Of a stretch of DNA of 64,000 nucleotides, positions 12,276-18,079 are shown piece by piece (the first letter of the stretch is position 1; each line of letters opens with the position of its first letter). The stretch covers positions 2,170,001 through 2,234,000 of the forward strand of contig NC_017586.1 of NCBI RefSeq assembly GCF_000240165.1, in the 5' to 3' direction. The DNA is from Streptantibioticus cattleyicolor NRRL 8057 = DSM 46488. GTDB taxonomy: Bacteria; Actinomycetota; Actinomycetes; Streptomycetales; Streptomycetaceae. Both the position numbers and the translations under genes were made by a program. The notes below the pieces were generated by a model, which did no database searches, was not told the origin of the DNA, and saw nothing but the letters and a program-made list of their open reading frames with translations.

Positions 12276-12414
12276 GCACAGGGTGACCGGTGGGGCGCGG
12301 GTGACGTGGCGGATCCGGGGATCATGGGCATGACTGTGTGAACAATCCATCAGTCCTGCTACAACCCCGTCTCCGATGCTGTCCGGCTCCGGCGCAGCGG
12401 GCACACTGCACTGC

Positions 12415-13716
12415 ATGAACGGATGGCCCGAGGGTTGGACCGACGACAGCGAGCCGGAAGGCGCCCGCGTGATGCCACACGTACGGCGGCCGGCGAATCC
12501 GGGCCGGCCGTACGGCGGCGGTTACGGTGCGCAGCCGCCCGTACCCCCGCAGGGGTCCGCGGCGCGGTCGCCGCACGCCGAGCCTCCGCTGCCTCCGGAG
12601 CTGTCGCCGCGGCGGGGGGCGGCGCACGGCGCCGTGCCGCGGCAGGCCGCCGGGGCGGGCGGTGCCACCACCTACCGGGCCGGGCGCGGCGGCGGACGCG
12701 GCGGGCCGGGCGCCCCCGGCGGGCGGCCGAAGAACTGGCGCAAGCGCATCGGCTACGGCGCGCTGACCCTGGTCGTCGTCCTGCTCGCGGTCTCGGTGGG
12801 CACCTACTTCTGGGCCGACGGCAAGCTCAAGCACACCGTCGACCTGGCCTCGCTGCCGGACCGGCCGGCGGCCGGCCAGGGCACCAACTACCTGATCGTC
12901 GGCTCCGACAGCCGGGAGGGGATGACCGACGCGCAGAAGCAGGCGCTGCACACCGGGTCGGCCGACGGCAAGCGCACCGACTCGATGATGATCCTGCACG
13001 TCGGTGACAACGGCGACACCCTGCTGTCGCTGCCGCGCGACTCCTACGTCACCATCCCGGCGTTCACCGGCTCCAAGGGCACCCACTACCCGGCGACCCG
13101 GCACAAGCTCAACACCGCGTTCGCCTGGGGCGGCGGGGCGCTGCTGACCCGCACCGTCGAGTACAACACCGGGCTGCGCATCGACCACTACGCGGAGATC
13201 GGCTTCACCGGCTTCGTCGGCCTGGTCGACGCCATGGGCGGGGTCGACATGTGCCTGGACAAGCCGATCAAGGACACCGCCTCCGGCGCCGACCTGAAGG
13301 CCGGCTGCCAGACGCTGAGCGGCGCCCAGTCGCTGGCCTTCGTCCGCGAGCGCCACCAGGAGGCCGACCAGGACCTCGGCCGCATGCGCCACCAGCAGCA
13401 GTTCCTGTCCACGCTGGCCCACCAGGCGGCCTCCCCGGCCACCGTGCTCAACCCGTTCAAGCTCTACCCGGTGCTCGGCGCCGGGCTGGACACCCTGGAG
13501 GTGGACAACGACATGAGCCTGTGGGACCTGGGCGAGATGTTCTTCTCCATGAAGGGCGTCACCGGGGGCGGCGGCAAGTCGATGACCGTGCCGATCGGCA
13601 ACGCCAACCTGCCCACCCCCTCCGACGGCGACGCGGTGACCTGGGACAAGGCCAAGTCGCAGCAGCTCTTCGACCAGCTCAAGAACGACCAGGCGGTGAC
13701 CGTCTCGGACAAGTGA
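12415..13716 (+). CDS. LCP family wall-polymer ligase without LytR_C domain (LCP5)
   Basis: A 433-residue protein if translation starts at ATG 12415 (MNGWPEGWTDD). An in-frame ATG at 12472 is an alternative. A proline/glycine-rich cytoplasmic tail precedes a membrane helix at about residues 112-134. The LCP domain follows from about 155 to the C-terminus: YLIVGSDSREGM, SLPRDSYVTIP, FVRERHQEADQDLGRMRHQQQFL. There is no LytR_C domain, unlike LCP1-LCP3. Compact LCP proteins of this type resemble the main LcpA/TagT-type ligases. It ends in a strong hairpin at 13734-13793. Confidence 0.92.
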   Translation: MNGWPEGWTDDSEPEGARVMPHVRRPANPGRPYGGGYGAQPPVPPQGSAARSPHAEPPLPPELSPRRGAAHGAVPRQAAGAGGATTYRAGRGGGRGGPGAPGGRPKNWRKRIGYGALTLVVVLLAVSVGTYFWADGKLKHTVDLASLPDRPAAGQGTNYLIVGSDSREGMTDAQKQALHTGSADGKRTDSMMILHVGDNGDTLLSLPRDSYVTIPAFTGSKGTHYPATRHKLNTAFAWGGGALLTRTVEYNTGLRIDHYAEIGFTGFVGLVDAMGGVDMCLDKPIKDTASGADLKAGCQTLSGAQSLAFVRERHQEADQDLGRMRHQQQFLSTLAHQAASPATVLNPFKLYPVLGAGLDTLEVDNDMSLWDLGEMFFSMKGVTGGGGKSMTVPIGNANLPTPSDGDAVTWDKAKSQQLFDQLKNDQAVTVSDK

Positions 13717-13829: not shown

Positions 13830-15281
13830 TCAGACCAGTTCCTTCTTCCGCTTGGCGGTGCCGACGAAGATCCCGGACAGGACCGCTCCGGCCAGCACGA
13901 TCGCCGAGTTGACGATCACCGCGACGCTCACCCCGTGGAGTACCGCGTGGGAGGTGCTGGCGGCGCCGATCCCGGCGGTGGCGATGGCGCTCATGATCGG
14001 GGTGCCCATGGTGATCCCGATCTGCTGGGTCATGGTGGCCAGGCCGGTGGCCATGCCCTGCTCGTCGTCGGGCAGGCCCGAGGTGGCGGTGACCATGAAG
14101 CCCACGATGGCCAGCATGTTGCCGACGCCGCCGGCGAAGGTGGCCACCAGCAGCAGCCCCAGCCAGCCGTGGCTCTCGCCGAGGGTGGCCAGCGAGGCGG
14201 TGGCGACCGCCTGGAGCACACCGCCGGTGATCAGCGTGGCGCGGGTGCCGATGCGGGCGATGACCCGGGCCGCGGCGACCCCGCCGACGATGGTGCCGAC
14301 GCCCAGGACGCCGAAGGAGAGCCCGGCGGCCAGCGGCGAGAAGCCCAGCACCTTCTGCAGGTAGAGGGTCATCAGGAAGACCAGCGAGGTCTCGGTGACG
14401 AAGGCGATCAGGCCCTGGATGTTGCCGAAGATCACCGAGCGGCGCTTGAGGACGCGGACCGGGACGAGCGGGGCGGCGGCGCGGGACTCGATGGCGTAGA
14501 AGGCGATCAGCAGCAGCACCCCGACGGCGAGCGCGCCGAGCGCCAGCGGGTCGCCCCAGCCCTTGTCACCGGCGGTGGTCAGGCCGTAGACGAGGGCGAG
14601 CAGACCGGCGGTGACGGAGATGGCGCCGGGCACGTCCAGCTTGGGGCGCTCGTCGGGACGGGACTCGCGGATCACGGCGGGGGCCAGCAGCAGCACGGCG
14701 AGGGCGACGGGGACGTTGATGAAGAAGGCCCAGCGCCAGGAGAGCAGGTCGGTCAGGACGCCGCCGAGGATGGCACCGGTGGTGAAACCGGCCGACATCA
14801 GGGCGCCGTTGAGGCCGAGCGCCTTGTCGCGCAGCGGTCCCTCGGGGAACGAGGAGGTCAGCAGGGCCAGCCCGGCCGGGGTGACGGCGGCGGTGGCCAG
14901 GCCCTGGGCGACCCGGGCGATCATCAGCATCAGCGGGTCGGTGGAGAGCCCGCCGAGCAGCGAGGCGCCGCCCAGCACGGCGAGTCCGACCAGGAAGAGC
15001 CGGCGGCGGCCCACGATGTCGGCGACCCGGCCGAACAGCAGCGTGAACCCGGCGGCGGCCAGCGCGAACGCGGTGACGATCCACTGGAGGTTGGCGAGCG
15101 AGAACCCGAGGCCCTTGCCGATGACGGGCAGGGCGACGTTGAGGATGGAGAAGTCGACCGCCAGCATGAACTGGGCGGCGAGCAGCACCACCAGGGTCAG
15201 CCGACGGCGGCCGGTCATGACGTTGTCGGGCGCGGTGTCCACGGCGAGCGCCGCGGTGTCGGGAGTGGTGTACGTCGTCAT
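13830..15281 (-). CDS. MFS drug exporter, DHA2 (14-helix) family
   Basis: This 483-residue protein starts at ATG 15281. It has about 14 hydrophobic helices. Family motifs include FMLAVDFSILNVALPVIGK in helix 1, the motif-A loop GRVADIVGRRRLF near residues 83-95 and SWRWAFFINVPVAL, which is typical of DHA2 proton-driven multidrug exporters. It is divergent from an XRE regulator at 15425, with three 15-bp repeats between them, so it is probably induced by a compound sensed by that regulator. The exported substrate is unknown. Confidence 0.9.
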   Translation of the reverse strand: MTTYTTPDTAALAVDTAPDNVMTGRRRLTLVVLLAAQFMLAVDFSILNVALPVIGKGLGFSLANLQWIVTAFALAAAGFTLLFGRVADIVGRRRLFLVGLAVLGGASLLGGLSTDPLMLMIARVAQGLATAAVTPAGLALLTSSFPEGPLRDKALGLNGALMSAGFTTGAILGGVLTDLLSWRWAFFINVPVALAVLLLAPAVIRESRPDERPKLDVPGAISVTAGLLALVYGLTTAGDKGWGDPLALGALAVGVLLLIAFYAIESRAAAPLVPVRVLKRRSVIFGNIQGLIAFVTETSLVFLMTLYLQKVLGFSPLAAGLSFGVLGVGTIVGGVAAARVIARIGTRATLITGGVLQAVATASLATLGESHGWLGLLLVATFAGGVGNMLAIVGFMVTATSGLPDDEQGMATGLATMTQQIGITMGTPIMSAIATAGIGAASTSHAVLHGVSVAVIVNSAIVLAGAVLSGIFVGTAKRKKELV

Positions 15282-15331
15282 GCCGGTAAGACTGGTCCGC
15301 CCCGAGCGGCCCACCCAGCCCTCTGGTTTGC

Positions 15332-15376
15332 GTACCAATCGCGGGGTTACCAACGCGAGGGTTACCAATGGCGGGG
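15332..15376. repeat. Three tandem 15-bp iterons, probable operator of the divergent MFS/XRE pair
   Basis: The units are GTACCAATCGCGGGG (15332-15346), TTACCAACGCGAGGG (15347-15361) and TTACCAATGGCGGGG (15362-15376), head to tail with no spacer. They share the core TACCAA followed by a G-rich end. An inverted TGGTTTG lies just before them. Their position between two divergent start codons suggests a multi-site operator for the XRE protein. Confidence 0.65.
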
Positions 15377-15424
15377 TCATGCTGACGGCTCCTCGGCCGG
15401 CCGGGGAAGGTGCACACTGGGCCC

Positions 15425-16333
15425 ATGGACCGTAAAGAGGGATCGTCCGAACTCGGGGAGTTCCTGCGGACCCGCCGCGCCCGCTTGCAGCCGGAGGACG
15501 TGGGACTGGTCAGTTACGGCAACCGGCGCCGGGTGCCGGGGCTGCGCCGCGAGGAACTCGCGCAGCTCGCCGGGGTGAGCGTGGCGTACTACACGCGGCT
15601 GGAACAGGGGCAGTCCGGCAACGCCTCGGACGACGTGCTGGACGCGATCGCCCGGGCGCTGCGGCTCGGTGAGGACGAGGTGGCCCACCTGCGCAACCTG
15701 GCCCGTCCCCGGCGGGCCAAGCGGCGCAAGGCCGCACCGGTGGAGTACGCCCGGCCGGGGGCACGGCAGTTGATCGCCGCGATGCCGGAGGTGCCGGCGG
15801 TCGTCCTCGACGTGCGCTTCGACGTCCTGGCGTGGAACCCGCTGGGCCACGCCCTGGTCGCCGGCCACCTGGACCCGGCCGCCCCGGACGACCCCGCCCG
15901 ACGGCCCAACCTCCAGCGGCTGTTGTTCCTCGACCCGCGCACCCGGGAGCTGTATCCGCAGTGGGAGGACGAGGCCCGGCGGGCGGTCTCCAGTCTGCGG
16001 CTGTTCAGCGGAAGCAGCCCGGACGACGAGCGACTTGCCGAACTCGTCGGCGAGTTGTCCATGAAATCCGGGGAGTTCGCCGCCCTGTGGTCCCGGCACC
16101 CGGTGCACAACTGCACCTTCGGCCGCAAGTGGTTCCGCCACCCCGAAGTGGGCGAGCTGGAGCTGGACTTCGAGATGACGCTGCTCCCGGAGTCCGGGCA
16201 CCGGCTGCTGATGTACAGCGCGGAGCCGGACTCCCCGTCCAAGGCGGCCCTCGGTCTGCTGGCCTCCACCGCCCGCCGCTCCCCCACCCGCCCCCCGGCC
16301 GACACCCCCGCCCAGACCCCCCACCGCTCCTGA
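15425..16333 (+). CDS. XRE-family regulator with MmyB-like ligand domain
   Basis: This 302-residue protein starts at ATG 15425; a GTG at 15410 is possible. The helix-turn-helix spans about residues 10-75 and includes LRREELAQLAGVSVAYYTRLEQG, the hallmark of the Streptomyces XRE-MmyB group. The C-terminal part (about 105-275) is the MmyB-like sensor domain with LDVRFDVLAWNPLGHAL and FGRKWFRHPEVGELELDFE. These proteins usually repress a neighbouring gene until a small ligand binds. Here that gene is the divergent MFS exporter. The C-terminal tail is Pro/Thr-rich and probably disordered. Confidence 0.88.
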   Translation: MDRKEGSSELGEFLRTRRARLQPEDVGLVSYGNRRRVPGLRREELAQLAGVSVAYYTRLEQGQSGNASDDVLDAIARALRLGEDEVAHLRNLARPRRAKRRKAAPVEYARPGARQLIAAMPEVPAVVLDVRFDVLAWNPLGHALVAGHLDPAAPDDPARRPNLQRLLFLDPRTRELYPQWEDEARRAVSSLRLFSGSSPDDERLAELVGELSMKSGEFAALWSRHPVHNCTFGRKWFRHPEVGELELDFEMTLLPESGHRLLMYSAEPDSPSKAALGLLASTARRSPTRPPADTPAQTPHRS

Positions 16334-16550: not shown

Positions 16551-16757
16551 ATGGCCCGTGAGGAACTGGCCCGGCTCACCGGTGAGGGGGATGGAGAGTG
16601 CGGGGGTGATGACTGCCCCAACGTCTACCTGACCGCGTCGGGATCGTTGGTGGTCCAGGGTGACGTGTCGAACGCCTTCGTCCCGCCGGACGGTGAAGCG
16701 CTGGTGGAGATCCCGGAGGCCGTTCTGAGGGAGGCCGTTCGTGCTCTTGGCTGGTGA
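16551..16757 (+). CDS. Small acidic protein at the head of a WhiJ-like operon
   Basis: This 68-residue protein starts at ATG 16551 after GAGGGGGGCG. It is acidic and contains GDGECGGDDCPNVYLTASGSL, a Cys pair about six residues apart, then a beta-rich stretch VVQGDVSNAFVPPDGEALVEIPEAVL. It recalls the small DUF397-like partners of XRE-DUF5753 regulators, although the classical DUF397 core is not obvious. It overlaps the next gene by 17 bp, so the two are probably coupled. A role as an antagonist or co-factor of the XRE protein is inference from similar systems. Confidence 0.6.
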   Translation: MAREELARLTGEGDGECGGDDCPNVYLTASGSLVVQGDVSNAFVPPDGEALVEIPEAVLREAVRALGW

Positions 16758-17259
16758 TGACTGGCGGAGGGCGTTCGACGCCATGGAGTACGAGGCGTGG
16801 CGTTTGGAGACCCTGCCCGTCTACCGGGTCCCGCAGGAGGAAGACGCCATCCGCCGCTTTCTGGCGGGGGAGCCGGTGACGCGACAGGCAACACAGCCTT
16901 GGTTCGACCGGGTCCAGGCTTACGTGGCGAGCGGACGCAGCGTCGGACGGGTCCACATCGTCACGCAACCGCTCTCGGACTACCTCCGCTTCGAGTTCGA
17001 CCATTACCGTCACAATGTCGAGGCCGGGGAAGCCGTTCGCGTCCTCGACGTGACGAACCGCCCCAACCCTCTGGACGGGGTCCAGGACTTCTGGATGTTC
17101 GACCGTTCCCGCATCGTGCTCATGCACTACGAGGCGGACGGCACCCAGGTGAGCCGGGAAGTATACGGCGGCGACCCGGAGCCGTTCCGGGAGTACCAGC
17201 GCATCGCCCTGGCGGAATCGGTTCCCTTCGAGGAGTACGTGAAGGGTCTTGACGCTTGA
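16741..17259 (+). CDS. DUF6879 family protein
   Basis: This 172-residue protein starts at GTG 16741 with GGGAGG at about 16728. The sequence fits the DUF6879 family, which is typical of actinomycetes: AWRLETLPVYRVPQEEDAIRRF, WFDRVQAYVASGRSVGRVHIV, and the DFWMFDRSRIVLMHYEADG block near residues 116-138. There is no signal peptide or membrane helix. No biochemical role is known to me. The gene is fused in expression to the XRE-DUF5753 regulator (11-bp overlap) and the upstream small acidic protein. This is an architecture shared with WhiJ/AbaA-like developmental regulators. Confidence 0.75.
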   Translation: MLLAGDDWRRAFDAMEYEAWRLETLPVYRVPQEEDAIRRFLAGEPVTRQATQPWFDRVQAYVASGRSVGRVHIVTQPLSDYLRFEFDHYRHNVEAGEAVRVLDVTNRPNPLDGVQDFWMFDRSRIVLMHYEADGTQVSREVYGGDPEPFREYQRIALAESVPFEEYVKGLDA

Positions 17260-18079
17260 AGCGGAGCGGCTAGGGAAACCGAAAGCCGACCTGGCCGAGA
17301 CGTTGCGCACACTTCGGAAGCGAGTCGGGCTTTCCCAAGTCCGGCTCGCTCAGCGTTGTCGGATGTCCCAGTCGAAGATCAGCAAGTTGGAAACCAATGA
17401 GATCACGCCGACTCTGGTTGACGTCGATCTCATCTTGCGGGCGCTCAAAGCCCCTGAGCATGTGATGGCCGAGGTGACGGCCATGGCTCGGCTCGCGAAC
17501 ACGGAGTGGCACCCCGTCCGGGCCTCGTGGCGGCGTGGACTGGAGAAGCGCCAGGCGGAGCTGGCCGGTCTGGAGGCGAAGGCCACGGAACTCCGGTACT
17601 TCCTCCCGGCAATGATCACAGGGTTGTTGGCTACCCCCGAATACATTCGGGCGAGCCTCGAATATTCACCGGGAGACGTCTCCAGGACTGTGGCACGAAA
17701 GCTTGAGCGGCAAGCGGTGCTTTACGACGCCACGAAGCGCTTCACCTTTCTGCTCACCGAGCAGGCCATCAGGTGGGCCGTGGTGCCGGCCCCGGCCATG
17801 GCCGTGCAGATCGACCATTTGGCGTCGCTGTCCCATCTGCCCAATGTCCGGATCGGACTCGTGCCCATGGGTACGGTCATGAGCCGTGGCCCCATGAACA
17901 CGTTCACCGTCTACGGCGAGAGACTGGCCACGGTCGAGACCTTCACGGGCCGAACCGTCTTCAGCGACTCCCGCGACATCGCCGAACACCTGGAGATCTT
18001 CCAGCAGTACGAACAGCTTGCCCAGTTCGGAGACGCGGCAAGGAATCTGCTTCGGGAATGGGCCGGCCTCTACCGTTGA
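17249..18079 (+). CDS. XRE-DUF5753 (WhiJ-like) transcriptional regulator
   Basis: This 276-residue protein appears to start at TTG 17249, inside the end of the DUF6879 gene, since the next ATG lies within the helix-turn-helix. The HTH covers about residues 13-70 (LRTLRKRVGLSQVRLAQRC, SQSKISKLE). The DUF5753 ligand-like domain fills about 95-275, with YFLPAMITGLLATPEYIRA, YDATKRFTFLLTEQAIRW and the TFTVYGERLATVETFTG block. Streptomyces carries dozens of such regulators, some affecting sporulation and antibiotic production. It probably binds the palindrome at 16437 and controls its own operon. Confidence 0.85.
   Translation: MTLEAERLGKPKADLAETLRTLRKRVGLSQVRLAQRCRMSQSKISKLETNEITPTLVDVDLILRALKAPEHVMAEVTAMARLANTEWHPVRASWRRGLEKRQAELAGLEAKATELRYFLPAMITGLLATPEYIRASLEYSPGDVSRTVARKLERQAVLYDATKRFTFLLTEQAIRWAVVPAPAMAVQIDHLASLSHLPNVRIGLVPMGTVMSRGPMNTFTVYGERLATVETFTGRTVFSDSRDIAEHLEIFQQYEQLAQFGDAARNLLREWAGLYR

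Follow-up and report, generated by a model that had tools for sequence, protein, structure and literature searches.

Regulators of the MmyB/MltR type number over a thousand and are often encoded beside antibiotic genes, and a short divergent gap between the regulator gene and its putative target is typical of them (PMC3406030). A pseudo-palindromic target has been suggested for MmyB, which is described as an activator, and a target of ~20 bp with two-fold symmetry has been modelled for MltR (PMC3406030). No operator rule for regulators of this type was found in a search of mainly open-licence literature. The sequences of the MmyB 'B-boxes' are reportedly given in O'Rourke 2009, and the dyad described below may be the same thing.

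In the 64-kb window analysed here (the whole stretch of DNA, in whose numbering positions are given), a regulator of this type is divergent from its putative target, an exporter gene, across a short gap of 143 bp, as is typical for the family, and the gap contains three tandem 15-bp repeats. We consider it probable that the neighbouring regulator has its operator in these repeats, which would consist of overlapping dyads at a 15-bp pitch and serve divergent promoters.

Repeat array and flanking genes

With TRF, a triple search and alignment, we located three tandem 15-bp units at 15333–15377 on the plus strand: unit 1 (TACCAATCGCGGGGT, 15333–15347), unit 2 (TACCAACGCGAGGGT, 15348–15362) and unit 3 (TACCAATGGCGGGGT, 15363–15377). 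Units 1 and 3 are identical at 14 of 15 positions, units 1 and 2 at 10 of 15, and units 2 and 3 at 11 of 15. TRF called a period of 15 with 3.0 copies. A TACCAA-N9 triple with up to three mismatches occurred once in the window (expectation of 0.00 from 100 shuffles), and with up to two mismatches it had a single occurrence in the 8.1-Mb genome. The three repeats reported by the sequence-only reading are therefore real and unique in the genome; the place given for them, 15332–15376, was that of the array, with both ends one base too low. The 143-bp divergent gap was also correct, extending from 15282 to 15424 given an exporter start at ATG 15281. The same reading called the repeats iterons. This is a term from plasmid replication, for repeats at a replication origin that are bound by a Rep initiator, and it does not suit an array that lies between an exporter and a regulator inside a ~6.28-Mb contig, with no Rep initiator detected by a profile scan of seven neighbouring proteins.

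The regulator (15425–16333, plus strand, 302 amino acids) contains an NH2-terminal XRE-type HTH (HTH_31, 5.9e-14, 52.6 bits against a cut-off of 27) and a COOH-terminal PAS-like ligand-binding domain (MLTR_LBD, PF17765, 9.7e-53). The best PDB match of its predicted fold (model pLDDT of 88.3) was 3pxp (E of 8.7e-13, TM of 0.53), and a search of the PDB with the family profile also gave 3pxp (3.3e-13); the regulator sequence alone gave no match in the PDB. With these domains and this fold match, the protein is an MmyB/MltR-type regulator. The divergent gene (13830–15281, minus strand) encodes an EmrB/DHA2-like MFS exporter of 483 amino acids, the putative target. Given that this protein matched MFS_1 (1.6e-59) but scored 212.1 bits with the DHA2 model TIGR00711 (E of 1.4e-62), under the curated cut-off of 230.2, we refer to it as DHA2-like, a softer label than the original 'DHA2 exporter'.

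Beyond the exporter, the window contains a LytR-CpsA-Psr gene (12376–13716). At two other loci, L010 and L041, the DNA just upstream of the regulator resembles the end of a LytR-CpsA-Psr gene, as if, relative to the window, the exporter had been gained or lost between that gene and the regulator. A DUF6879 gene is followed, with an overlap of a few bases, by a gene for an XRE-DUF5753 regulator (together 16741–18079), the latter being a second XRE regulator that the profile scan placed at 17249–18079. The genome yielded 31 PF17765 matches, a rich set of MmyB-type paralogues, with some of the matches being pieces of one gene.

Dyads, promoter boxes and the 15-bp register

Relatives of the regulator from genomes of the same family and class and from named genome records provided 150 loci, among which the window was entered twice (as L001 and L002) and 20 had no site scoring above 8. 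We removed the loci without a site, L002, those whose upstream DNA was too short and any that matched another by >85% across 90 bp. This left 101 loci: in 58, the window among them, an MFS homologue is divergent from the regulator, and 43 have no such neighbour. The loci are related, and counts from them are not independent. A literal TACCAA search for arrays in the orthologues found none, and TACCAA did not occur more than once within 300 bp upstream of the regulator at any of the 150 loci outside the window. What is kept in orthologous loci is the 15-bp register together with a dyad, not the TACCAA triple. A motif search in orthologues, as proposed by the sequence-only reading, thus failed for the literal unit and succeeded for the register and the dyad.

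The dyad (~21–23 bp), found by eye and then with an iterated matrix, lies upstream of most regulators in the comparison set. Its consensus (~21 bp) is SSTRNCMCTSNCAGGGNCASS, with T6, A16 and A22 as the most informative positions. The outer conserved steps, T6-A7 on the left (T-A/G) and C/T21-A22 on the right (C/T-A), are 15 bp apart, and a 15-bp tandem can therefore be read as a chain of overlapping dyads. Because palindromy at the edges shared by neighbouring units is weak (1.61 versus 1.11 of 4), we mention a 'shared half-site' only as a suggestion. Orthologues without an adjoining exporter keep the dyad, which points to autoregulation.

We scored the window with a matrix trained on 78 sites, none of them from the window or from its in-genome paralogues. 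The two best sites on both strands of the 64 kb were dyad 1, proximal to the exporter (15331–15351, plus strand, centre 15341, score of 14.3), and dyad 3, proximal to the regulator (15361–15381, plus strand, centre 15371, score of 11.3); the next site scored 7.7. Dyad 2 (15346–15366, plus strand, centre 15356) is a weak overlapping site with a score of 3.0. Repeats 1 and 3, which are separated by 30 bp and face roughly the same side of the DNA, are thus the better sites, and repeat 2 is a weak overlapping one. Dyad 3 is placed like the conserved operator of the orthologues. The dyads of the window are among the weakest of the set: they are degenerate, with 3, 3 and 2 of 7 complementary pairs (counted from T6-A22 inwards), and dyad 3 was the second lowest of 46 main dyads (11.4 versus a median of 23.5). 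That the repeats are sites for the regulator common to the divergent regulator and exporter genes is very probably right.

A dyad pattern, drawn partly from the window itself, was also searched for in the genome of the window. With up to one mismatch it occurred at five places, including repeats 1 and 3 and the operator of L004; with up to two mismatches a reversed-pattern control gave 316 hits versus 40 for the pattern, and we therefore make no claim of a regulon.

Register positions are counted from the T of the regulator-proximal unit, which is set to zero. In the 57 exporter-linked loci other than the window, TA steps were found at –30 (8 loci), –15 (11), 0 (36) and +15 (9), as well as at –36 in 7 loci, where they belong to the TACCCAG of a promoter box; any other offset between –45 and +29 had at most two. 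The exact box A[CG]CCAG on the plus strand, the putative –35 element of the exporter, was present between –90 and –10 in 38 of the 58 deduplicated exporter-linked loci and absent in the other 20. All 38 box-bearing loci had it in register, at –20 (11 loci), –35 (14) or –50 (13), compared with a Markov expectation for in-register boxes of 0.09 loci and at most 2. Five secondary boxes in the same loci were off register, twice at –29 and three times at –14. CCAG alone was found at –50 in 13, at –35 in 19 and at –20 in 12 cases, with scattered others that were mostly single. We read distances of 20, 35 and 50 bp between the box and the regulator-proximal unit as one, two and three modules, respectively.

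With relaxed boxes, a module number was assigned to 52 of 59 loci (the 58 plus the in-genome paralogue L003): one module in 13, two in 24 and three in 15. The other seven (L027, L060, L062, L136, L138, L142 and L145) fitted no register even with a relaxed box. Upstream of the regulator of L027, at 37–218 bp, several dyads stand at steps of ~32 bp (three turns) and not of 15 bp. Given that the assignment used three registers only, the symmetry of extra units and the regulator tree cannot by themselves reveal off-register cases, but the exact-box distances can. The extra units have pyrimidine-purine steps at their edges, and 54 of them showed a mean dyad symmetry of 3.69 of 7 pairs, versus 1.4–2.7 for centres shifted by up to 8 bp. 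They resemble the main dyad, with mean matrix scores of –14.7 and –12.1 versus –43.0 and –40.9 when shifted. Eight of the 24 two-module loci have something other than TA, TG or CA as their edge at –15. On a quick maximum-likelihood tree of the 52 regulators, which has several open forks and on which the long branches of L003 and L113 meet, the module number changed at least 14 times (shuffled mean of 23.4). Module number therefore seems to change often without loss of register, a statement to be read with the caution that registers were used in the assignment.

The putative –35 element of the exporter in the window, ACCCAG on the plus strand (CTGGGT on the minus strand), is at 15313–15318, at one of the box distances of 20 + 15k bp from the unit. 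A putative –10 element, CAGTCT on the minus strand, lies at 15289–15294; its A and T are near-invariant (51 of 52 loci each), the spacer is 18 bp and transcription is predicted to start near 15282. The window thus has contiguous sites at a fixed 15-bp pitch upstream of the exporter, in register with its box. On the regulator side, starts of NANA[CA]T-like –10 elements cluster in orthologues at T6+39 and T6+50, each ±1. The putative –10 element in the window, CACACT at 15413–15418 on the plus strand, belongs with this cluster, and T6 of dyad 3 lies 50 bp before it, one of the two conserved distances. With a start expected near 15425, the regulator transcript probably has no leader, or almost none. 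The exporter side thus moves by 15 bp at a time and the regulator side by ~11 bp (one helical turn). What the sequence itself shows is the array, its register, the dyads and the promoter-like boxes.

A further set of loci, outside the sample used so far, was obtained by querying with an in-genome paralogue whose neighbouring gene looks like a zinc alcohol dehydrogenase. In this SCO4944-like clade (regulators beside alcohol dehydrogenase genes; 30 loci examined, 22 further listed places left out), TA was found at both –15 and 0 in 29 of 30 loci, and TA, TG or CA at +15 in 29 of 30. The only position with the exact box was –35, in 21 of 30. The two-module register thus appears in 29 of 30 loci; L272 and L273 resemble three modules, and L251 has no site. 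Many loci of the clade (L245–L274) also carry a GCGTACG-like element at about +29 from the regulator-proximal TA, which is 14, not 15, bp past the right edge of the dyad. Of 83 upstream regions of distant family members, 16 had the box, and in these the mean dyad symmetry peaked weakly at box+20 (3.06 versus 2.88 for the next position). The genome of the window contains a second three-unit 15-bp array with other letters (L003, G000:C2:6273407-6274288, and L241), flanked by a related regulator on one side and an apparent alpha/beta-hydrolase gene on the other; for regulators of the L003 type, a search of 200 genomes found no relatives closer than the window family.

Proposed operator and alternative readings

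In the proposed operator, each added 15 bp would add one dyad sharing an outer edge with its neighbour, with the module number being 1, 2 or 3 and varying between loci. Each dyad would bind one regulator dimer. Adjacent dyads have 6 bp in common and differ by ~154 degrees in their orientation about the helix, so that neighbouring dimers, 15 bp apart, would stack on nearly opposite faces and alternate dyads, 30 bp apart, would lie on about the same face. The earlier suggestion that 15-bp spacing places neighbouring sites on alternate faces holds in this approximate sense, for ~1.43 turns. The first dyad would lie at a set distance from the exporter –35 box, with its centre at about –59, and the last at either of two distances from the regulator –10 element, with its centre at about –43 or –54, positions one helical turn apart. 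In the window, with three modules of which 1 and 3 would be the better and 2 the weak one, the centres at 15341, 15356 and 15371 have positions of about –59, –74 and –89 relative to the exporter start, and of about –84, –69 and –54 relative to the regulator start. We infer that the dimers bind, occupy the dyads simultaneously, stack and cooperate, and that the regulator, through a ligand of its PAS-like domain, sets both promoters, most likely by ligand-dependent activation of the exporter and of its own gene.

The sign of this control is the part most exposed to another reading, that the regulator is a repressor which blocks one or both promoters and is released by a ligand; this would alter the sign only, overlaps with the preferred explanation and is a substantial possibility. 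Pairs of a divergent repressor and exporter that are controlled by ligand release are common. In register after the –35 box comes a half-site-like CCCTG, and MsrR of C. glutamicum, an XRE regulator encoded beside mfs, is described as repressing both sides (PMC7532634). The dyad centres, however, lie upstream of the –10 elements, at about –59 relative to the exporter start and –43 or –54 relative to the regulator start. A sigma-70 consensus scan matched no promoter, so that help by the regulator at a poor –35 element is plausible. We favour activation in view of these upstream positions, of –35 regions that are poor and of the activator role ascribed to MmyB (PMC3406030).

The other readings would remove the operator array itself. 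Were the exporter to start at ATG 15380, the repeats would be codons and the 15-bp period a five-residue repeat. This ATG is in frame, and the frame is open through the repeats of the window and across the array in 28 of 49 loci; an in-frame stop nevertheless precedes or falls inside the array in 21 of 49, and the distance from the array to the exporter start varies regardless of frame. Given that neither this distance nor the frame is conserved, the repeats are most likely non-coding, and we give the codon reading hardly any credence. It is also very unlikely that the array is read by a different protein, either an unrelated regulator or one of the nucleoid: the TACCAA repeat itself is absent from orthologues and a second XRE regulator (DUF5753) is encoded at 17249–18079, but the same dyad is found upstream of MmyB-type genes with other neighbours and of other family members. 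Somewhat less improbable, though still unlikely, is that each locus has one working dyad and that further 15-bp units are functionless slipped copies or remnants. Extra units do score well under the main dyad in most loci, one module suffices in 13 of 52 loci, and repeats 1 and 3 of the window, identical at 14 of 15 positions, look as they would after a recent duplication. Against this, extra units vary in sequence between loci but retain their register, their edges and the symmetry of the dyad. In the SCO4944-like clade almost every locus (29 of 30) has the two-module form, and for exact boxes the primary distance to the operator takes no value other than the three in register.

Relation to known systems

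Tentatively, the modular operator of the MmyB family may grow in 15-bp steps, with its dimers forming a helical stack that joins the divergent promoters and with module number acting as an evolvable dial for the steepness of the response. If true, such 15-bp steps would amount to an operator grammar for regulators that form a large family and have received little study. The rule (a box, a distance of 20 bp and after it one, two or three dyads at 15 bp) yields predictable sites, including those at loci like SCO4944-SCO4945. It is unusual for a spacing to change by 15 rather than by 10–11 bp, and such a spacing is directly relevant to the packing of dimers on DNA.

IdeR and QacR bind as two dimers on opposite faces. 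Neighbouring dimers likewise occupy opposite faces of one operator with DtxR and Zur (PMC11275975); these belong to other families, and their operators hold two dimers and no array of variable length. ArcA of E. coli resembles the present case in the variable number of repeat elements per site, but it is a response regulator whose direct repeats are spaced at 11 bp (one turn), and overlapping dyads do not figure in the relevant parts of its description (PMC3798270). With MntR on mneP and mneS of B. subtilis, several side-by-side dimers upstream of exporter genes give cooperative activation, as proposed here; MntR is of another family, and its four 18-bp sites are 1 bp apart (a 19-bp pitch) and do not overlap (PMC11275975). 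In the portions of these accounts that concern the binding sites, neither overlapping 15-bp dyads nor distances that grow by 15 bp are described for MntR (PMC11275975) or ArcA (PMC3798270). For MltR and MmyB, the operator passages of the published account mention neither a module of 15 bp nor an array nor a fixed distance to the promoter, but these systems share with the present locus the regulator family, the 3pxp fold and the divergent arrangement (PMC3406030).
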